In this document: piece by piece, positions 7,625-51,518 of the stretch | Layout: every line of letters begins with the position of its first letter | Position numbering within the stretch: the stretch's first letter is position 1 | Origin: Terriglobia bacterium | GTDB taxonomy: Bacteria > Acidobacteriota > Terriglobia > Terriglobales > Acidobacteriaceae | Length of the DNA stretch: 64,000 nt | Assembly: GCA_020073565.1 (NCBI GenBank) | Contig: JAIQEY010000007.1 | Location: forward strand, 62,001-126,000 | Direction of reading: 5' to 3' | Translations under genes and position numbers: made by a program | The notes under the pieces: model-generated | Database searches by the model: none | What the model was told of the DNA's origin: nothing | The model's input: the letters and a program-made list of their open reading frames with translations, nothing else

Positions 7625-7655
7625 GCCCACTTCTCGCGCTTTTCGAGAAGTGGGC
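7625..7655. repeat. Palindromic hairpin, GCCCACTTCTCG arms
   Basis: Perfect 12-bp arms GCCCACTTCTCG / CGAGAAGTGGGC are separated by 7 bases. It lies 33 bp after the molybdopterin subunit stop. It could serve as a terminator hairpin, but similar CCCAC..GTGGG palindromes recur in the window (about 37761-37792), so it is more likely a dispersed REP-like unit. It sits beside the RAYT transposase remnant. Confidence 0.7.
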
Positions 7656-7687: not shown

Positions 7688-8238
7688 TCAAGCGGCCGGC
7701 GGTCGAGTCTTCATTTTCAGGACCTGCCACTCATTCACTCTGACGGGGCCAACCTCCCCGAAGGCGTAAGCACGAAAGCTGCTCCACCGCCAGAGTTCAG
7801 GGGATGCTACCAACCCACGCTTTACTGGGTTGCGATGCATGTAGCGCAGCTTCTCGACGCGCTTGTGTGACGTCCAGACATTGAAGTCGTAGAAGCGTTT
7901 CTCCCACACGCGCGGTGGGGCAGAATCGGAGCGGCTGGTTCCAGCCAGTTTCCCTCGCTTTCCTTCCGCGATCACACGGCGCGCAAAGCCGAGTTTCAGA
8001 GCTTGCATGATCGTCGAAGGAGTCATTTCCTGCGGTTCGCTGATCAGCAGATGAGTGTGCTCGGGCATGACGACGTAGCCCACCACCACGAACTGATACC
8101 GGCGGCGCACCTGTTCGAGAACTGTCAGAAACAAATCGCGGTCTGCTCCGTGCCGAGCATCTGCCGTCGGCGATAGCAACTGCAAGTGATGAAATGAAGG
8201 TCGCCTGCCCCATAGTAGCGCTTCAGATTCCACGGCAT
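7688..8238 (-). pseudogene. REP-associated tyrosine transposase (RAYT, Y1 family), frameshifted
   Basis: The minus-strand frame from the ATG at 8238 gives the typical RAYT start (MPWNLKRYYGAGDLHFITCS). It moves out of frame near 8141-8146 by one missing base. The rest continues in another frame with DLFLTVLEQVRRRYQFVV, the HUH-like pair HTH (EHTHLL), WEKRFYDFN and YMHRNPVKRGLV. RAYTs are single-copy Y1 nucleases linked to REP palindromes. Palindromes flank this one on both sides (7625-7655 and 8332-8360). It is inactive if the frameshift is real; a sequencing error is the alternative. Confidence 0.82.
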
Positions 8239-8516
8239 GTCAGCCAGGGTAGGCGGAGCCTTGTTCTTAGCGCGGTGACGCGCTTACAGTTCAATCGTGA
8301 TGAAAAAAGTTAGGTGATCGCGACGAAAGGCCCCGCGTCTCGAAAACCGCGAGACGCGGGCCACCCCCGTCACTTACATCCGTGCTCCCCATCACCGACT
8401 CCGACTTCCACCCGTGCGACACTCCAGACTGAATGGGGCAGCGCTTTTGTGTGCCCGTCTAGAGGACGGTCTCACCCGGCGTTGCCCCAATGCTTTTCAG
8501 GCGTTCTTTGACAACA
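8239..8516. other. Intergenic stretch with one REP-like palindrome
   Basis: No gene is supported. One strong palindrome, CCCGCGTCTCG / CGAGACGCGGG with a 7-base loop, lies at 8332-8360, just upstream of the RAYT remnant. The remainder up to 8516 shows no recognisable feature apart from a CTTTGACAAC word directly before the dispersed element. Confidence 0.55.
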
Positions 8517-15358: not shown

Positions 15359-15435
15359 AACCACCAAGGACACGAAGTATCACGAAGGTTTTATCTCAGG
15401 TGTTTCCTTCGTGTACCTTCGTGGCCTTTGTGGTT
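15359..15435. repeat. 30-bp-arm hairpin built of CACGAAGG words, between hyaB and hyaC
   Basis: The left arm at 15359-15388 and the right arm at 15406-15435 are nearly perfect reverse complements (words AACCACCAAGGACACGAAG and CCTTCGTGG..TTTGTGGTT). Relatives occur at 40709-40783, 42996-43072, 48642-48672 and 51477-51518. It lies in a 148-bp gap inside the hydrogenase operon, so it may attenuate transcription or stabilise the upstream mRNA (inference). Confidence 0.8.
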
Positions 15436-15461
15436 AACGGTTTCGCAGTCAGGAGGAACCT

Positions 15462-24899: not shown

Positions 24900-24995
24900 G
24901 GACAGTCGCCCTCGGCTGTCCAGCCGGGCGTAGCCCGGCGGCTCACGTCCAGCGTGAGTGTTAGCATTTCTTAGCCGGCGGGACGCCGGCGCTAC
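24897..24995. repeat. Cluster of REP-like palindromes between UDG gene and priA
   Basis: Almost the entire 96-bp gap is palindromes: GGGACAGTCGCCCTCGGCTGTCC, GCCGGGCGTAGCCCGGC (about 24926-24942), CTCACGTCCAGCGTGAG (about 24942-24958), and AGCCGGCGGGACGCCGGCGCT (about 24973-24993). The last touches the priA start codon. The same GCCGGCG..CGCCGGC unit is found inside priA and rnr. Confidence 0.75.
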
Positions 24996-27521
24996 ATGCC
25001 CACCTTCGCTGACGTCGCACTCGCCGTGCCGCTGGACTTGGCGTTCACCTATGCTATCCCTCCCGGCATGGAGCCCGTCGTCGGCGGGCGGGTGCTGGTG
25101 CCTTTCCGACAACAGCGCATGTCAGGCATCGTCGTTGAGTTGCATGACCGTCCGCCTCACGTCAAGACGAAAAAAGTCATCGAAGCTCTCGATCTCTCGC
25201 CGGTCCTCGACGAACACCTGCTGAAACTTGGGAAGTGGATTGCCGATTACTATCTCGCGCCAGTGGGCGAAGTCTTCCGCACTATGCTGCCGCTGTCGGC
25301 AGAGTTCAAGCGCGCGATCACGTATCGCATCACCGACGAGGGCCAGATGGCGCTGCATCTGGCGGGGATGTCGGGGTCTCCGGCTCGGTCGCGGCGGACG
25401 CCGGACGAACAGTTGGTTGAGTTCCGCGTGCTCGACTATCTGGCGGAGCGCGAGAGCGTGCGCGAGGAGAGGCTGCGCGGCGCCACCCGGGTATCGAAAG
25501 CGCTACTGAGCGGCATGGTGCGCAAGAAGTGGATTGCGCGCGAGGATGTTTCGGCGGCGCGGGATGCTGCGCGTACCGTGAAGGTCGCGGTGCTCCTCGC
25601 GGCAGAGGACAACGATGAGACGGGCGAGGGCGGGGCGCCCCTTCGACAAGCTCAGAGCAGGCTCTCGCGACAGCCGGCGGGGCGCCGGCGCTACGCTTCC
25701 AAGCTCAACGAGAATCAACGGACGCTGATCGATGCACTGGCGGCTGCGGGCGGCACGGTGCCGGTCGAGGCTCTGCGCGGGCTCGACGTTCCGCGCACTA
25801 CTTTGAGCACTCTGGTGCGGCGTGGATTGGTGCAGTTGATTGACGAGCCGCAGGACTTCACCGTGTCGAAGATCAAGCCGCGGCGGTCGCCCTTCGAATT
25901 CGAATTCAGTCCGGCGCAGAAAAGTGCACTCGGGAACATTCTCGAGGGTGTTTCCTCGCGCAAGTTCAGCGGCATGTTGCTGCACGGCGTCACCGGTTCT
26001 GGCAAGACGGCGGTCTATCTGGCCGGGATGCGCGAAGTGCTCGAGCAGGGGCGGTCATCGATTCTACTGGTCCCTGAAATCGGCCTGACTCCTGCGTTGG
26101 CGGCCGACCTGCATCAGGCTTTTGGCGATGAGGTCGCGATTCTGCACTCCGGGCTCACAGATGCGGAGCGGGCCGAGCAGTGGCATCGCATCAAACGCGG
26201 CGAGGCGCGGGTCGTAGTCGGGACCCGCTCGGCGGTGTTTGCTCCGGTTAGCGATCTGGCGCTGCTCATTGTCGACGAAGAGCAGGATTCCTCCTACAAG
26301 CAGGAAGAGACGCCGCGCTATCACGCGCGCGACGTGGCGGTCATGCGCGCAAAGATGGCCGGCGCGGTCGTGGTGCTGGGTTCGGCCACGCCGTCTCTGG
26401 AGTCCTACTACAACGCAAAGAAGCACAAATATGAACTCGTGGAGCTGCCGGATCGCGTGGAGCAGCGTCCGCTGCCCGAGGTTGAGATTCTCGACATGCG
26501 GCAGGAATTTCAGGAGACCGGGCATGAGCAGGTGATCTCGCGCAAACTGGCGGAGGAAATCCGCGAGCGGTTGGAGAAAAAAGAGCAGGTCATGGTGCTG
26601 CTTAACCGGCGCGGGTACTCGCCCGTTGCGCTCTGCCGCACCTGTGGGAAGACGCTCCAGTGCAAGAACTGTGCCGTGTCGATGACCCACCACAAACGCG
26701 AGCACAAGATGGAATGTCACTACTGCGGATTCGTCGCCCGTATTCCCGACAAGTGCGCCCTTTGCGGCAGCGAGTACGTGTATTTCGTCGGGACGGGGTC
26801 GGAGAAGCTGGAAGAATTTCTGCACGGCATGTTCCCGCAGGCACGCATCGGGCGGCTCGACCGCGATACGGTGCGCGGGCGCGAGGATTTCGAGCGCGTC
26901 CTCAATGCCCTGAATGAAGGCGAACTCGACATGCTGGTGGGCACGCAGATGATCGCCAAGGGACACGATGTCCACGGCGTGACGTTGGTGGGCGTGGTTG
27001 GGGCTGACATCGCGCTCGGATTGCCCGACTTTCGCGCCGCCGAAAGAACGTTTCAATTGCTGACCCAGGTGGCGGGCCGCGCGGGTCGGGGACCGTCCCC
27101 GGGAAGGGTCGTACTGCAGACCTATTTTCCAGATCACTACGCCGTGCAGTTTGCGGCGCGGCACGATTTCGTCGGGTTCTACGACAAGGAACTGCAATTC
27201 CGCAGCTGGATGCACTATCCGCCGTACAGCGCGATTGCCAATGTGCTGGTCCGGAGCGAAAAGCTGGATGATGCTCTTACATGGTCAGGCGAATTGGGGC
27301 GGTGGCTTGAGAAGACGCGGCACGAGGGGATACGCGTGCTCGGTCCGGCAGCGGCGCCCATTCTGCGGCTGAAGAGGGATTACCGGTATCACTTCATTCT
27401 GAAGTCTCCGAGCCGGGAGAAGATGAACACGCTGCTGCGGGCGTTGCTGGCGGAAGCGGCCGCGCGGAAGATCCCGCGCACGCAAATTATCGTGGATGTG
27501 GATGCGGTGTGGCTGATGTGA
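24996..27521 (+). CDS. priA: Primosomal protein N' (replication restart helicase PriA), with in-frame repeat insertion
   Basis: The protein has 841 residues. An N-terminal 3'-DNA-end-binding domain begins VALAVPLDLAFTYAIP. Winged-helix segments lie at about 130-290. Helicase Walker A is GVTGSGKTAVYL near residue 331, DEEQ box VDEEQDSSYK, zinc domain cysteines CRTCGKTLQCKNC and CHYCGF...CALCG, and motif VI GTQMIAKGHD..VAGRAGR. It restarts stalled replication forks. Residues of about 210-234 (GAPLRQAQSRLSRQPAGRRR) are encoded by two repeat words found in non-coding DNA elsewhere. This insertion lies in a linker and keeps the frame. Confidence 0.93.
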   Translation: MPTFADVALAVPLDLAFTYAIPPGMEPVVGGRVLVPFRQQRMSGIVVELHDRPPHVKTKKVIEALDLSPVLDEHLLKLGKWIADYYLAPVGEVFRTMLPLSAEFKRAITYRITDEGQMALHLAGMSGSPARSRRTPDEQLVEFRVLDYLAERESVREERLRGATRVSKALLSGMVRKKWIAREDVSAARDAARTVKVAVLLAAEDNDETGEGGAPLRQAQSRLSRQPAGRRRYASKLNENQRTLIDALAAAGGTVPVEALRGLDVPRTTLSTLVRRGLVQLIDEPQDFTVSKIKPRRSPFEFEFSPAQKSALGNILEGVSSRKFSGMLLHGVTGSGKTAVYLAGMREVLEQGRSSILLVPEIGLTPALAADLHQAFGDEVAILHSGLTDAERAEQWHRIKRGEARVVVGTRSAVFAPVSDLALLIVDEEQDSSYKQEETPRYHARDVAVMRAKMAGAVVVLGSATPSLESYYNAKKHKYELVELPDRVEQRPLPEVEILDMRQEFQETGHEQVISRKLAEEIRERLEKKEQVMVLLNRRGYSPVALCRTCGKTLQCKNCAVSMTHHKREHKMECHYCGFVARIPDKCALCGSEYVYFVGTGSEKLEEFLHGMFPQARIGRLDRDTVRGREDFERVLNALNEGELDMLVGTQMIAKGHDVHGVTLVGVVGADIALGLPDFRAAERTFQLLTQVAGRAGRGPSPGRVVLQTYFPDHYAVQFAARHDFVGFYDKELQFRSWMHYPPYSAIANVLVRSEKLDDALTWSGELGRWLEKTRHEGIRVLGPAAAPILRLKRDYRYHFILKSPSREKMNTLLRALLAEAAARKIPRTQIIVDVDAVWLM
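25623..25696 (+). repeat. Palindromic repeat inserted in frame inside priA
   Basis: It contains CGGGGCGCCCC, the word CCCTTCGACAAGCTCAGAG (relatives at about 23945-23970 and about 28720-28750) and GACAGCCGGCGG..CGCCGGCGCTACG (relatives at 24973-24993 and 45040-45070). It encodes about 25 residues with no counterpart in the PriA I recall. Confidence 0.75.
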
Positions 27522-40708: not shown

Positions 40709-40783
40709 CTTCTTGGTGTACCTTCGTGCCCTTGGTGCTTGACGCGGGAATTAAACCACGAAGGACACAAAGGTACACGAAGT
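40709..40783. repeat. CACGAAGG-word hairpin upstream of the decarboxylase
   Basis: Left part TTGGTGTACCTTCGTGCCC and right part ACCACGAAGGACACAAAGGT can pair over about 28 bases with a few mismatches. Same family as 15359-15435 and 42996-43072. It occupies the 5' leader region of the decarboxylase gene. Confidence 0.7.
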
Positions 40784-42995: not shown

Positions 42996-43072
42996 GTGCC
43001 TTCGTGGTCGTTCGTGTCCTTCGTGGTGATCGGGTTCTTTCAACCACCAAGGACACGAAGGCACACGAAGGA
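42996..43072. repeat. CACGAAGG-word hairpin upstream of ffh
   Basis: TGCCTTCGTGG..GTGTCCTTCGTGGT on the left and ACCACCAAGGACACGAAGG on the right can form a stem of about 28 bp. It lies between ffh and the PPOX gene and belongs to the family at 15359-15435. Confidence 0.75.
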
Positions 43073-44015: not shown

Positions 44016-44426
44016 GTGTTTGCCCGCAAGGTTGCCGCGCGCCTGAAACCGAACTCGCTTACGGAATTTAAGAATCTCATGGAGCGTGAGATCCTTCCCT
44101 GGCTGCAAATGCAAGAAGGCTTCCTGGATTTGCTCACCCTGGCTGTCCCCGATAGCCGAGAAGTCGCAACCATCACCTTCTGGAACCACAACGGGAAAGC
44201 GCAGGCTTGCAACTCGAGCGGTTGTCCGGAAGCGCTGAGGATTCTGGGAAAACTCCTGGACGGGCCTCCTCACGTTAAGACGTTCGAGGTTGTCAGCTCG
44301 ACATTTCGAAGTTTCATCGCGGGGCCATCCGAAGCCGGAACGGTCCGAGAGAGGGAAGGAATCCTCCACGCAAGCGCGCAACCGAATGACAGCATTCCCG
44401 GCGGCAATCGGTCCCTCTCGGCTTGA
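44016..44426 (+). CDS. ABM-like dimeric alpha/beta barrel protein
   Basis: The protein has 136 residues from a GTG at 44016 that has GAGGAGG directly upstream; the longer open frame lacks a ribosome binding site. FARKVAARLKPNSLTEFKNL and ILPWLQMQEGFLDLLTLAV, then ITFWNHNGKAQA, and PHVKTFEVVSSTFRSF, resemble antibiotic-biosynthesis-monooxygenase-type small barrels. Function unknown. The last 25 residues beyond the fold are low in complexity. It converges on rnr. Confidence 0.7.
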   Translation: MFARKVAARLKPNSLTEFKNLMEREILPWLQMQEGFLDLLTLAVPDSREVATITFWNHNGKAQACNSSGCPEALRILGKLLDGPPHVKTFEVVSSTFRSFIAGPSEAGTVREREGILHASAQPNDSIPGGNRSLSA

Positions 44427-44493
44427 TCGACCAGGTTTGCGCCGCCAACCTTCTCCATCATTGACAGGACGGGGTGGTCTACGTTGCAAGCCA

Positions 44494-47088
44494 TCACTTG
44501 CGCCGGCCTTTTCCCGACGGCTTGGGTTGCTCGTCGAACACAGCGAACTGGATTTTTTTTTCCACGGGATCGATGCGGTCGACTAGAACACGCACGCGAT
44601 CGCCTAGGCTGTAGGTTTTGCGCGAGCGCTGGCCGATGATCTGGCGCGTGATTTCGTGATACGTGTAGTGGTCGTCGGTTAGCGTGTTGAGCGGCACCAG
44701 GCCTTCAACGAAGAGGTCAGTGAGTTCGACGAAGAGACCGAACTTGGTGACGCTGACGATGAGTCCGTCGAAGTCTTCGCCGATTCGGGGCTCCATGAAT
44801 TTCACTTTCTTCCATTCCATCAGTTCGCGTTCGGCGTCGTCGGCCCGGCGCTCGGACTGGCTCGATTCTTCGGCGATGCTGTGGAGTTCTTCGAGCGAGA
44901 TGGGACCGCCCAGCGGTTCGACAGATTGCTGATGCGCGGCGTGATCGCGGCGCTTGGACCATGGGGAAACGTGTGGGGCGGGCATTCCTGCCCGCCCCGA
45001 GTCAGCGAGATGCTCTCCGTGGCGGGGGCGAGTCGCCCCCGCGACAGCCGGCGGGACGCCGGCGCTACGGTCGAGTGTCGGGGAACCGCCTACTGGAACT
45101 TCGCCATCTAGCTTTTCGGCTGATTCTCTCAGCACTTCTTTCAGGATGCGGTGCACGATCAGGTCGGGATAACGGCGGATCGGTGACGTGAAGTGTGTGT
45201 AGGTGGTCGCGGCCAGCGCGAAGTGGCCGAGATTCTCTTCGGAGTAGCGAGCTTGCTTCAGGGAGCGCAGCATCAGGTAGCTCAGGATCCGCTCTTCCGG
45301 CTTGCCAGCAATTTTCGCCGTGAGCTTTTGGTACATGCGGGGGGTGATGTGCACTTCTCTCGGGACTTCGATTTCGCGCACGCGTTTGCCGGTGCCGTGG
45401 GCGGCGCGGCGGTCGGTCTTCATCTGCACGCGATCGATGGGCAGCGCGCCTACCCCCAGTGAATATCCGAAGGTTGAGGCGATGACTTCGAAGTCGTACA
45501 CGCGCTTGGCGTCGGGCTTTTCATGGATGCGGTAGAGCGAGGCGATGCGCTTGTTTTCGAGATAATGCGCCACGCACTCGTTAGCCGACAGCATGAATTC
45601 CTCGATCAGACGGTGGGCGATGTTGCGCTCGGAGCGCGTGATGCTCTTCATCAGGCCGAATTCGTCGAACTCGATGACGGGCTCGGGCAGGTCGAAGTCG
45701 ATCGAGCCTCGGCGCTCGCGCTTGCGGTTCAGGATCATCGCCAGGTCGCGCATTCGCTCGAAATTCTCGGCCAGCGGGGCATAGCGTTTGCGCGTTTTTG
45801 GATCGCCTTCGAGGACGGCGTTCACGGCAGTGTAGGTCATGCGCTCGGCGGAGCGGATGACGCCTTCGTTCAATTCGTAGCCGACGATTTCGCCGTGGTG
45901 GTCGATTTCCATTGTGCAGGAGAGGACGAGGCGGTCGACTTGCGGCCGTAGGCTGCAGATGTCGGTCGAGAGCTCGAGCGGCAACATGGGGACGGCGCGG
46001 TCAGGGAAATAGACGCTGGTGCCGCGCAGACGGGCTTCCTGGTCGAGCGGCGAATCGGGCTTGACGTAGTTCGCTACGTCGGCGATGTGGACTTGCAGTT
46101 CGTAGTTGCCGTTTGCGAGTTGGCGAACGTGGACCGCGTCGTCGAAGTCGCGGGCGGTTTCGCCGTCGATAGTGACGATGGGAAGGTGGCGGTAGTCGCG
46201 GCGGTGGCGCAGTTCGCGGGCGGGGATGACCGTGTCATTCTTGATGGCCTGCGCTTCTTCGATCACCTCGGGCGGGAAGCGGTGCGGGAGGTGAAACTTG
46301 CGGATCATGATTTCGACATCGACGCCGAAATCGGTTTCTTCGCCGAGGATCTCGATGACTCGGCCGCGCGGATTTTGCGTGGCACTCGGCCAGTCGGTGA
46401 TTTCCACGTCCACGACTACGCCGTCGAGGTCCTGCCAGTTGGCATGGCGGGCGGCCTCGTCACCGATCACGCGGTTGGCTGATGCTTTCTGACGGTGGGG
46501 GCGGGGCGCCCCCACGACAGCCGCCGAGTGCGGCGGCGCTACGGTCGGGATCTCGGCGCCGGGTGGGATTACGATTTCCTGGGACACTTTTTCGTCGATG
46601 GGCTTTACGGTGTTGTGGCGGTGTCCGTAGTGGAAAATGCCGACTACGGTGGGATGCGCGCGCGAAACGGAACGGACGATACGGCCTTCGGCGCGGCCGT
46701 CGGTGCGGAAGGCCGAGATCTCCACCAGTACCCGGTCACCATGCATTGATGATCCGGTGGCGGGCGGAGGGATGAAGACATCTCCCGCGAGCCGGGCTTT
46801 CAGATTGGGGTCGAGCGTGTTGGCGTCGGGAATGACGAAGCCGAAGCCGTCGCGATGCATACTGAGGCGGCCGACCAGCATGTTAGGGCCGGACTTCGCC
46901 TGAGGGATCGCGTAACGGTCGGCATCGACCTGCAACAGTTCGCCTTTGTTTACCAGGGAGTGCAGGCGATCGGCCAGTTCGCGACGGGCGTCGCCTTTTA
47001 CGCCTAGCTCACGCAGTAACTGCTTGTGGCCCGCCGTCTTCTTGGGCTGACGGCTGATGTGGCGGAGGATGGAGGAATCAGAGAGCAT
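44494..47088 (-). CDS. rnr: Ribonuclease R, with two in-frame repeat insertions
   Basis: The protein has 864 residues from the ATG at 47088. Order: N-terminal HTH (RHISRQPKKTAGHKQLLREL), cold-shock domains (GRLSMHRDGFGFVIPD), the RNB catalytic part (IDGETARDFDDAVHV with catalytic Asp residues, DICSLRPQVDRL), then S1 (EDFDGLIVSVTKFGLFVEL) and a basic tail. It degrades structured RNA 3' to 5'. Two stretches, about residues 181-198 and 673-707, are encoded by REP-like palindromes that also occur outside genes. A longer frame to 47184 is itself repeat sequence and was excluded. Confidence 0.92.
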   Translation of the reverse strand: MLSDSSILRHISRQPKKTAGHKQLLRELGVKGDARRELADRLHSLVNKGELLQVDADRYAIPQAKSGPNMLVGRLSMHRDGFGFVIPDANTLDPNLKARLAGDVFIPPPATGSSMHGDRVLVEISAFRTDGRAEGRIVRSVSRAHPTVVGIFHYGHRHNTVKPIDEKVSQEIVIPPGAEIPTVAPPHSAAVVGAPRPHRQKASANRVIGDEAARHANWQDLDGVVVDVEITDWPSATQNPRGRVIEILGEETDFGVDVEIMIRKFHLPHRFPPEVIEEAQAIKNDTVIPARELRHRRDYRHLPIVTIDGETARDFDDAVHVRQLANGNYELQVHIADVANYVKPDSPLDQEARLRGTSVYFPDRAVPMLPLELSTDICSLRPQVDRLVLSCTMEIDHHGEIVGYELNEGVIRSAERMTYTAVNAVLEGDPKTRKRYAPLAENFERMRDLAMILNRKRERRGSIDFDLPEPVIEFDEFGLMKSITRSERNIAHRLIEEFMLSANECVAHYLENKRIASLYRIHEKPDAKRVYDFEVIASTFGYSLGVGALPIDRVQMKTDRRAAHGTGKRVREIEVPREVHITPRMYQKLTAKIAGKPEERILSYLMLRSLKQARYSEENLGHFALAATTYTHFTSPIRRYPDLIVHRILKEVLRESAEKLDGEVPVGGSPTLDRSAGVPPAVAGATRPRHGEHLADSGRAGMPAPHVSPWSKRRDHAAHQQSVEPLGGPISLEELHSIAEESSQSERRADDAERELMEWKKVKFMEPRIGEDFDGLIVSVTKFGLFVELTDLFVEGLVPLNTLTDDHYTYHEITRQIIGQRSRKTYSLGDRVRVLVDRIDPVEKKIQFAVFDEQPKPSGKGRRK
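44969..45070 (-). repeat. REP-like repeats inserted in frame in rnr (C-terminal region)
   Basis: Two adjacent palindromes: GGGGCGGGCATTCCTGCCCGCCCC at about 44974-44997, and a longer unit with GGCGGGGGCGAGTCGCCCCCGC followed by AGCCGGCGGGACGCCGGCGCT (about 45020-45066). In frame they encode AGVPPAVAGATRP and GRAGMPAPH. These add to an insertion of about 60 residues between the RNB region and the S1 domain. Confidence 0.78.
46494..46546 (-). repeat. REP-like repeat inserted in frame in rnr (N-terminal region)
   Basis: GGTGGGGGCGGGGCGCCCCCAC is followed by AGCCGCCGAGTGCGGCGGCGCT, i.e. two palindromes in the same order and spacing as the unit at 45020-45066. It encodes APPHSAAVVGAPRP between the second cold-shock domain and the RNB region. 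Confidence 0.72.
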
Positions 47089-47090
47089 GA

Positions 47091-47174
47091 ACGTGTGGCG
47101 CGGGCATTCTTGCCCGCCTGTCGGCAGCATTCGCACTGCATGCAGGCGCGGACAAGAGTGTCCGCGCCACACGC
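47091..47174. repeat. REP-like palindrome pair in the rnr leader
   Basis: GTGTGGCGCGGGCATTCTTGCCCGCC on the left and GGCGCGGACAAGAGTGTCCGCGCCACAC on the right; the outer GTGTGGCGCGG/CCGCGCCACAC words are inverted copies. It starts 3 bp upstream of the rnr start codon, so there is no room for a normal ribosome binding site. Confidence 0.7.
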
Positions 47175-47196
47175 ATTTCGCCAAGCCCTGACACTC

Positions 47197-47730
47197 TCAT
47201 TTCAAGTACTTGTCTTCCAGAATCCTGCGATGATGCAGTTCGTGTCCGGCAATGATGTAGGCCAGGGCGCGCACCGTGACCTCGTTCTTGTTCGCTACGC
47301 CGAGGCGGGTCCAGGCAGCCTCGTCTAAATTGCGAAACAGCGCGAGGGTGGCGCGGCGCACGGCGATGTAGTCTTCAATCAGGTCAGCCAGCGGACGCCT
47401 TGCGAATGGGCAGTTGCGGACGTAGTCGTCCTGCTCGAAGCCTTCGATGGGAGTGGCGTCACCGCGCGCGATGCGCAGGGCGCGGTAGGCCATGATGCGC
47501 TCGGTATCATTCACGTGGCCGAGAACTTCTTTCAGGCTCCACTTGTCGGGCGCGTAGCGGAGATCCCCGTCGGACTCGGTACGTCCAGAGAGCAGCAAAA
47601 CCGTCTGGCGGCGCTGCTCGTCGAGCGTGGCAAGAATGTCGTTGCCTGAAACCAGGGAAATGTAGCGGTCGTAGTAGGGAGCGTATTCGCTCGCCTGAGG
47701 GCGGAAGGAGGTCGTTGCGGTCGTACTCAT
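47197..47730 (-). CDS. DinB family protein
   Basis: The protein has 177 residues from the ATG at 47730 with GAGG upstream. It is helical. Candidate metal ligands are HVNDTERIMAYRALRIARGD (first His) and the C-terminal IIAGHELHHRRILEDKYLK (H-x2-HH). KWSLKEVLGHVNDTE is a typical DinB_2 motif. Members include bacillithiol and mycothiol transferases and putative damage-inducible hydrolases; this one's substrate is unknown. Confidence 0.82.
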   Translation of the reverse strand: MSTTATTSFRPQASEYAPYYDRYISLVSGNDILATLDEQRRQTVLLLSGRTESDGDLRYAPDKWSLKEVLGHVNDTERIMAYRALRIARGDATPIEGFEQDDYVRNCPFARRPLADLIEDYIAVRRATLALFRNLDEAAWTRLGVANKNEVTVRALAYIIAGHELHHRRILEDKYLK

Positions 47731-50566: not shown

Positions 50567-51430
50567 ATGCCAGTTGCAGATACGATCAAGACGCTGCTGA
50601 ACCGAAGAGGTCTCCAATCCATTTCGCTCCCCTTAATGAATGGATTGGTCAGGCTGCAGGGGCATGGGGTGCAGCGGATATTTCTTGACGACGGAGTCTG
50701 GATGCACCAAACCTCGCGCGGCTATTTTGCCTATCACCAGCCCTACTTGCGATTGGACCTCTTGCGGCTGGATGAGTTCGCGCGCTGGCATTACTTCTGG
50801 GGGTACGCGCCCAAAGCCGGAGACGTCATCATGGATGTGGGAGCTGGCGTGGGCGAGGAAACATTGACTTTTTCCCAAGCGGTCGGCGAGCGTGGCAAAG
50901 TGATTTGCATCGAGGCACACCCACGGACCTACCGCTGCCTGGAAAAGCTGGTGCAATACAATCGCCTGGAGAACGTAATCCCCATTCATGTGGCAGCGAC
51001 CGAACCCGGCCGTTCGGTCGTTACCATCGAGAATGACAACGACTATCTGGGCAACCGCCTCGACGCTGCGGCGGGAGTTTCCGTTCCAGCTACGACGATC
51101 GATGCAATTCATCAACAACTGAATTTGGGACGGATCCATTTTTTGAAAATGAACATCGAAGGTTCGGAGCAGCTGGCCATTCACGGCATGACCGCGACTT
51201 TGAAGGAGACCGAGATCCTGTGCGTGTCGTGTCACGACTTCCTGGCACAAAGCGCCGCCGATGACGGGCTACGAACCAAGGCCTTGGTCCAGGACTTTCT
51301 GTTGCAGAACGGGCTGGATGTAGTGGAGAGGAGAGAACCCGGGCTTCCGCCGTATGTAGGGGACCAGTTGTGGGCCTACAACAGGACTCTTGCAGAAGCC
51401 CGCAAGCTAAGGACGCTCCACCCTGTGTAG
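50567..51430 (+). CDS. FkbM family methyltransferase
   Basis: The protein has 287 residues from the ATG at 50567, preceded by GGAGGTGAG; the frame open to 50468 is longer but unsupported. The SAM-binding motif is IMDVGAGVGEETLTFSQAVG near residue 90, with ICIEAHPRTYRCLEKLVQYN next and IHFLKMNIEGSEQLAI as the FkbM-specific region. It probably O-methylates a sugar or lipid. A REP-like word (GGGCAGACACTCTTGTCCGCC) begins at its stop. Confidence 0.87.
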   Translation: MPVADTIKTLLNRRGLQSISLPLMNGLVRLQGHGVQRIFLDDGVWMHQTSRGYFAYHQPYLRLDLLRLDEFARWHYFWGYAPKAGDVIMDVGAGVGEETLTFSQAVGERGKVICIEAHPRTYRCLEKLVQYNRLENVIPIHVAATEPGRSVVTIENDNDYLGNRLDAAAGVSVPATTIDAIHQQLNLGRIHFLKMNIEGSEQLAIHGMTATLKETEILCVSCHDFLAQSAADDGLRTKALVQDFLLQNGLDVVERREPGLPPYVGDQLWAYNRTLAEARKLRTLHPV

Positions 51431-51518
51431 GGCAGACACTCTTGTCCGCCGTCCTCTGGCCAAGATCAAAAGCTTGAACCACAGAGGACACAGAGGAACG
51501 CAGACGAACACAGAGGAA
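51431..51518. repeat. Repeat-rich gap: REP-like unit and ACAGAG words
   Basis: Contains GGCAGACACTCTTGTCCGCC (about 51431-51450), related to the palindrome in the rnr leader, and AACCACAGAGGACACAGAGGAAC (about 51478-51500), related to 48642-48672. Confidence 0.6.

Follow-up and report, generated by a model that had tools for sequence, protein, structure and literature searches.

Known systems of palindromic repeats and the present locus

Palindromic repeats of the REP/REPIN type, which have a GTAG foot, occur together with RAYT transposases (PMC3733652, PMC2817692, PMC3116915). In 2013, in-frame intragenic REPs were reported for several species, many of them within genes of replication or repair; the same article suggests flexible linkers as their possible seat and describes REPs at about the same recB site in two Xanthomonas species, X. 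campestris and X. oryzae (PMC3733652). The passages on Acidobacteria in its main text concern tyrosine transposases with other flanking inverted repeats (TIRYTs), and the words "RNase" and "ribonuclease" were not found in that main text. Another described system is that of the Rickettsia palindromic elements (RPE), whose units end in CGTC in R. conorii (PMC3733652).

The window, a 64,000-nucleotide stretch of DNA from a Terriglobia bacterium, contains an RNase R gene (rnr) in which palindromic repeats are translated in frame. One of the repeat families, designated B, resembles the described GTAG REP/REPIN elements in its GTAG foot, short hairpin, mostly intergenic placement (counted jointly with the other families) and self-bracketed transposase gene; it differs from what those articles describe in that several families here recolonize two linkers of one gene in dozens of species. 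Family F, with inverted palindromes around a transposase gene and no GTAG foot, can be likened by description to the Acidobacteria TIRYTs (PMC3733652), from which it differs in that F-like hairpins also occur inside an rnr linker (locus L068, more weakly L055). The RPEs share with the present repeats their in-frame position in housekeeping genes and their translation, whereas they are described with a CGTC tag, no dedicated transposase and another host group (PMC3733652). The recurrence of REPs at a single gene site has its counterpart in Xanthomonas recB, where two species are described (PMC3733652), as compared with 62 rnr genes, two linkers, at least seven families and PriA as a second case in this study. 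In-frame use of such repeats in a housekeeping gene, which the initial annotation had considered new for Acidobacteriota, is thus partly precedented, since in-frame REPs in housekeeping genes are known (PMC3733652); the phylum, the gene and the recurrence are what is new relative to the parts of the literature consulted. Among the matches listed in a mainly open literature, there was neither repeat colonization of RNase R nor an in-frame REP of Acidobacteriota, and many-family recolonization of one site in this phylum appears to be new.

The rnr gene and its repeat blocks

The rnr gene (44494..47088, minus strand) encodes a protein of 864 amino acids from its ATG. The product scores 744.6 bits against TIGR02063 (cut-off, 597.85), contains the Pfam domains OB_RNB, CSD2, RNB and S1, and has D308, D314, D316 and D317 at invariant columns in an alignment of 25 sequences; we take these residues to be the catalytic aspartates by analogy with E. 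coli RNase R. Judged by equivalog score, domains and aspartates, it is a normal-looking RNase R.

Three palindromic blocks lie in or beside this gene. Linker 2, which separates RNB from S1, contains the first block (44969..45070, minus strand). It encodes RSAGVPPAVAGATRPRHGEHLADSGRAGMPAPH and comprises three hairpins, namely a B unit (45047-45068), a stem (45022-45042) and an A unit (44973-44996), with up to 17 matching places in a 1.256-Mb sample of the genome. The block in linker 1, in the CSD2 region (46494..46546, minus strand), encodes TVAPPHSAAVVGAPRPH and comprises two hairpins, one B-like and a second stem, with 4 matching places in the same sample. The third block (47091..47174) is an inverted A-type pair in the rnr leader, which forms one 84-nt hairpin and stops 2 nt short of the ATG. 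Folding as DNA gave z-scores of -4.6, -4.2 and -7.2 for the blocks at 44969-45070, 46494-46546 and 47091-47174, respectively, and none of 200 shuffles of each folded equally well. The frame of rnr is uninterrupted through both internal blocks and is also open upstream of the ATG, through the third block, to a TTG at 47184 (896 amino acids). As the aligned homologues have a Met at or near the ATG (the script took the nearest M), the third block is read as leader rather than coding sequence. The presence of three blocks, two translated in a normal rnr and one 5' of the ATG, thus agrees with the initial annotation. Copies outside the gene, which it had placed at two sites, proved to be of unequal standing: an exact family B unit lies at 24974..24995 (plus strand), abutting the priA ATG on its 5' side, whereas the sequence at 51431..51450 (plus strand), which follows a gene call at 50636-51427, has only a visual likeness to a diverged half of unit A and gave no match in the pattern scan for repeat units. 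Rfam at gathering thresholds gave zero matches in 44400-47400.

Comparison with solved RNase R chains revealed that the two block-filled linkers are nearly missing from them. The chain 8cdu, which aligns with the window protein as far as both linkers, has 6 and 14 residues at linkers 1 and 2, against 44 and 79 in the window protein. A third extra stretch relative to 8cdu (residues 545-579, 35 against 5) is largely conserved in relatives. The AlphaFold model of the window protein is poor, with a mean pLDDT of 54.5.

Repeat families and associated transposases

Family B has a GTAG foot and a short imperfect palindrome, GTAGCGCCGGCGTCCCGCCGGC, which forms a hairpin on folding. With up to 3 mismatches, GCCGGCGNNACGCCGGCGCTAC occurs at 60 + 63 places in the genome and the reversed pattern at 1 + 4, so that the repeats are indeed present elsewhere in the genome, as the initial annotation had supposed (123 places for family B against 5 for the reversed control). 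Unit A starts with GTGTGG and does not have the GTAG foot of RAYT-associated REPs; it is a REP-like repeat for which no family is claimed, and the same holds for P, T and the others.

Nine Y1_Tnp matches were found in the genome of the window (G000) and eight in that of its nearest relative (G010), and in each genome inverted B units flank one such gene on both sides with GTAG outermost (1163-1184 and 1811-1832 of locus L127 in G000; 1408-1429 and 2055-2076 of locus L120 in G010). The protein of the G010 locus scores 85.7 bits against NF047646 (REP-associated tyrosine transposase; cut-off, 80). Because it is GTAG-footed and brackets a tyrosine transposase gene, family B is assigned to the RAYT-type REPs and looks like one of these rather than a Rickettsia RPE. 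B units bracket only one of the nine Y1_Tnp matches in G000, and the C-terminal end of this transposase, by our reading, is in a different frame from that of the G010 copy, so that the G000 enzyme may be inactive. Family F, which has no GTAG foot, brackets three more transposase genes (loci L115, L119 and L123), one of which is the gene of the window at 7688..8233 (minus strand; tyrosine transposase, RAYT model), with an F palindrome at 7625..7655 on one side and an F-type palindrome at 8332..8360 on the other. The F pattern occurs at 10 places in the 1.256-Mb sample, and its reversed control at 0. Two copies of family E adjoin one transposase gene, and a scan for transposase bracketing that covered A, H, P and T found none. 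Transposase ties are seen here only for B and F (bracketing) and E (two adjoining copies).

A pattern-free repeat search over 1.256 Mb of G000, about a fifth of the genome, yielded 140 repeat loci, of which 113 are intergenic, 15 are at gene edges and 12 are at least 25 codons inside genes; these figures cover all families jointly and not family B separately. Two of these 12 are those of rnr. In a 0.8-Mb sample of another genome, G015, 15 of the 114 repeat loci are at least 25 codons inside genes, one of them in rnr. The coding share is approximately 88% in the G000 sample and 86% in the G015 sample, with genes called by ourselves that cover 84-91% of each stretch. A binomial test of placement against coding coverage is far beyond chance, but it inherits the rule that no repeat locus was counted unless half or more of its partners were extragenic; this rule favors intergenic families, and the avoidance of genes is partly built in by it. 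The chance of two loci falling in a gene of rnr length is about 4 in 10,000, a value that ignores the selection of the window for the rnr finding.

Counts per genome were obtained for 24 genomes of the genus. Family B (up to 1 mismatch) occurs 51 times in G000, 33 times in G010 and at most 14 times in the others, and the rnr genes of both G000 and G010 carry B. Family E reaches its highest number, 18 copies, in G019, whose rnr has E, and has only 5 copies in G007, though the G007 rnr has E as well. P is present in 24, H in 22 and E in 18 of the 24 genomes; the reversed controls for P, H, E and B gave 0, except for one H place in G023.

Turnover of the linkers in related rnr genes

A total of 110 rnr loci were reduced to 62 distinct family-level genes after 28 without one of the two anchor motifs in open frame and 11 duplicates had been dropped and 9 order- or class-level relatives had been kept apart. 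Tests of both linkers used 59 genes (L018, L019 and the partial L106 excluded), and the linker-length test was also performed without L099. The two linkers vary widely among the 62 genes, and the rest of the protein aligns well. Linkers were compared with 2.31 Mb of non-rnr, non-priA DNA pooled from G000, G015 and locus flanks, not with the genome of each species itself. In this comparison, a threshold of 4 matches to repeat DNA elsewhere is reached by a linker of 26 of the 59 genes and by 0 of 1,804 tiles of the same length from the rest of rnr; at a threshold of 2 matches, the numbers are 34 of 59 and 21 of 1,804. Separate runs per linker gave 10 of 59 against 0 of 1,259 for linker 1 and 21 of 59 against 0 of 545 for linker 2. 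The share covered by perfect inverted repeats (arm length, 7 or more) is 6.7% in linker 2, 1.3% in the remaining sequence and 1.5% in shuffled sequence (62 genes; p = 0.0004 and 0.003, respectively, for the two comparisons); 27 genes lie above their own remainder and 35 have none in linker 2.

The rnr linkers contain no fewer than seven repeat families, which run in either orientation and are read in several frames. Patterns for the families B, P, H, E, A/Z, T and G matched a linker in 35 of the 62 genes and 0 of 596 tiles; they were written after the linkers had been viewed, so that the zero tile controls are partly by construction. These patterns miss the linker 1 block of the window itself, which has a longer loop, and tallies and tree labels for linker 1 are accordingly rough; a loop-tolerant B pattern raises the number to 36 of 62 and by itself matches 4 of the 596 tiles. 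With this pattern included, 26 of the 62 genes have no recognized family in either linker. Family B is translated as SAGVPPA, RRDAGAT or AGGTPAL, and 65 of the 72 combinations of unit, orientation and frame are stop-free. Family T is not a simple hairpin. Linker 2 has a median length of 69 with a recognized family and 58 without (p = 0.003); linker 1 does not differ (31 against 28.5, p = 0.22).

The initial annotation had proposed to examine whether the inserts are missing from close relatives at the exact repeat borders, a test that is too simple because relatives mostly have another repeat family, or none that is recognized, at the same sites. Linker 1 residues like VAPPxSAAV are found in L001, L002 (the nearest relative), L028, L049 and L099, not all of which are sisters; four genes of the 62 other than that of the window thus have similar residues, whereas the aligned order- and class-level relatives do not. 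To this small extent, the refuting case named in the initial annotation, homologues with the same residues, does occur. This recurrence reflects either one family landing repeatedly or an old insert. On a tree of 59 rows built without the linkers, at least 22 undirected changes of family are required at linker 2 and at least 16 at linker 1, and 30 label shuffles gave 25-28 and 16-19, respectively. Turnover is therefore high, and as 22 changes are fewer than in all 30 shuffles, some linker 2 inserts are inherited. Linker 2 measures 68-241 residues between anchors in all 62 family-level genes and 30-62 in the 9 order- or class-level relatives, and an SPWSKRRD motif is conserved after its variable part in many genes.

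Repeats in the PriA linker

The primosomal helicase gene priA (24996..27518, plus strand) is the second repeat-carrying housekeeping gene of the window. The in-frame repeats of its linker (25641..25696, plus strand) consist of 24 nt of a second family (25641-25664) within a B-type unit. The linker is 123 nt long in G000 and 99 nt in G010, and the difference of 24 nt is this second family inside the B unit. The second family was located at 4 places of the G000 sample and its control at 0. The 24-nt difference is the cleanest single event seen, although it could be a loss in G010. Of 24 priA loci fetched from the genus (22 of them scanned, L228-L249), 19 provided a linker, and 10 of these 19 have at least 4 matches to repeat DNA, against 0 of 297 tiles.

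Origin of the linker inserts

The inserts are identical with repeats found throughout the genome, are confined within rnr to the linkers and belong to several families that change many times on the tree, and family B brackets a transposase gene. It is very probable that REP-type palindromes and other small repeats were inserted into rnr and stayed in its tolerant linkers, which were repeatedly rebuilt. According to this explanation, REP-type palindromes, joined in the relatives by further small interspersed repeats, would insert into rnr and persist where the two linkers tolerate stop-free additions of a multiple of three. Family B would probably be mobilized by a RAYT whose substrate would be the GTAG-footed hairpins formed by single-stranded DNA, as suggested by the anatomy of the bracketed gene. 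Selection would purge most copies inside genes, permissive linkers excepted; there, copies would be translated, drift and then be overlaid or replaced by the next family; this order of events in rnr and the harmlessness of the inserts to the protein are presumed. Repeat DNA may thus have rebuilt linkers repeatedly, not only in RNase R but also in PriA and certain other proteins. The passive landing of stop-poor elements at tolerant sites is the best mechanism and is preferred over a selected function.

Selection of the inserted peptides for a function of the protein, for example partner binding via Ala/Pro/Gly-rich linkers, would be consistent with the longer linker 2 of all 62 family-level genes relative to the 9 distant relatives and with the SPWSKRRD motif kept after the variable part in many. 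The variable part itself is unconserved, and the different families, orientations and frames yield unrelated peptides, which makes such selection improbable. Slightly less probable still is a function at the RNA level, in which RNase R would remove RNAs that contain REPs, and the rnr mRNA, made a substrate by its hairpins, would be under feedback control. RNase R and PNPase are described as targeting REP-containing mRNA (PMC12320835), three strong hairpin blocks (folded as DNA) lie in or beside the gene, one of them at the start codon, and both linkers are recurrently occupied. This feedback is attractive but is ranked low because PriA linkers are colonized at least as often, so that rnr is not singled out; in addition, ParB, ValS, MnmE, MnmG, RecG and DnaG carry copies, 26 of the 62 rnr genes have no recognized family, family T is no simple hairpin and the families change often.

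The initial annotation had likened the blocks to RPEs, and the outcome is the same in that short palindromes are translated in frame in housekeeping genes. RPEs are described as CGTC-tagged units without transposase association (PMC3733652), whereas family B has a GTAG foot and its units flank a RAYT gene; in-frame insertion is shared and the tag is not, so that family B is of REP type and membership of the blocks in RPE is rejected as very improbable. An artefact of assembly or binning deserves still less credence. Most of the named records are metagenome-assembled genomes (MAGs), and the contamination estimate for G000 is 6%, but the pattern recurs across MAGs from many projects and also in G015, an assembly of about 30 contigs with rnr on one of 837 kb, and the frames stay open.

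Other repeat-carrying genes

In this group of soil Acidobacteria, unrelated repeats encode the same RNase R linkers in different species. We regard this as a natural experiment run many times over at the same two sites of a protein, in dozens of species and with no fewer than seven DNA sources read from either strand in several frames. It could be used to measure how frequently repeat DNA of noncoding origin is turned into protein, where it is accepted and whether selection ever keeps the inserts. For annotation, a peptide such as SAGVPPA, HPERSEG or TTEDTE that appears in proteins unrelated to each other can be a sign of repeat DNA rather than of homology. As a tentative generalization, which we consider somewhat less probable than its opposite, REPs and related repeats could be a standing engine of linker evolution in Terriglobales, with the linkers of informational enzymes (RNase R, PriA, ParB, MnmE, MnmG, ValS, RecG and DnaG) as a safe harbor for successive in-frame families and hence as fossils of repeat invasions. 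Informational genes, uncorrected for their share of all genes, look over-represented among the carriers, much as the 2013 article observed for replication and repair genes of other organisms (PMC3733652). Pfam analysis of 9 of the 11 G000 genes with internal repeats (one of them as 675 of 781 amino acids) revealed, as further carriers, ParB, RsmG, a HemN-like radical SAM protein and a class III aminotransferase, together with a CHAT protein, a methyltransferase and a kinase-TonB protein. For 10 of the 12 such genes of G015 (its rnr and an 84-amino-acid gene being excluded), the analysis identified ValS (three loci), MnmE, MnmG (two loci), RecG, DnaG and ParB, as well as ComEC-like, lipoyl ligase family, lactamase-fold and fucose isomerase-like proteins.

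Possible domain-sized insert in RNase R

The linker between the RNB and S1 domains of RNase R (linker 2) may have room for an entire domain, because the RNase R encoded at a related rnr locus (L099, contig PMHV01000044.1) appears to carry an inorganic pyrophosphatase-like domain there, in frame and with RNB on one side and S1 on the other, as judged from a Pfam match to PF00719 at residues about 714-814 (E 3.6e-13). In relatives, for example L004, L005, L047, L078 and L099, inspection by eye shows the leader upstream of the rnr ATG to contain tandem-like, degenerate units, each about 10 nt long and resembling or matching ctgagagctgacggctgatagc, in the place of the palindrome block of the source genome.

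Repeat families and transposase genes

The valyl-tRNA synthetase gene of the related genome G015 (G015:C12:167018-169960, equivalent to L196 7018-9960) contains three in-frame repeat loci, one of which is flanked by KIWNAARFMFMNVER and GIAGFQAQTLEDRWI. In the window, the AACCACCAAGGACACGAAG-type repeat is a family of its own, with inverted pairs at 15359-15436, 40712-40782 and 43000-43072, all outside genes as called in this analysis.

A gene matching the REP-associated tyrosine transposase (RAYT) model (7688-8233, minus strand) has palindromes on both sides (7625-7655 and 8332-8360). These belong to family F, the palindromes without a GTAG foot, which also brackets two more RAYT-model genes in the source genome (G000). 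The G000 transposase gene bracketed by the GTAG-footed family B (locus L127, G000:C52:93936-94067) differs in frame from the copy in the nearest relative, G010, near the C-terminal end.
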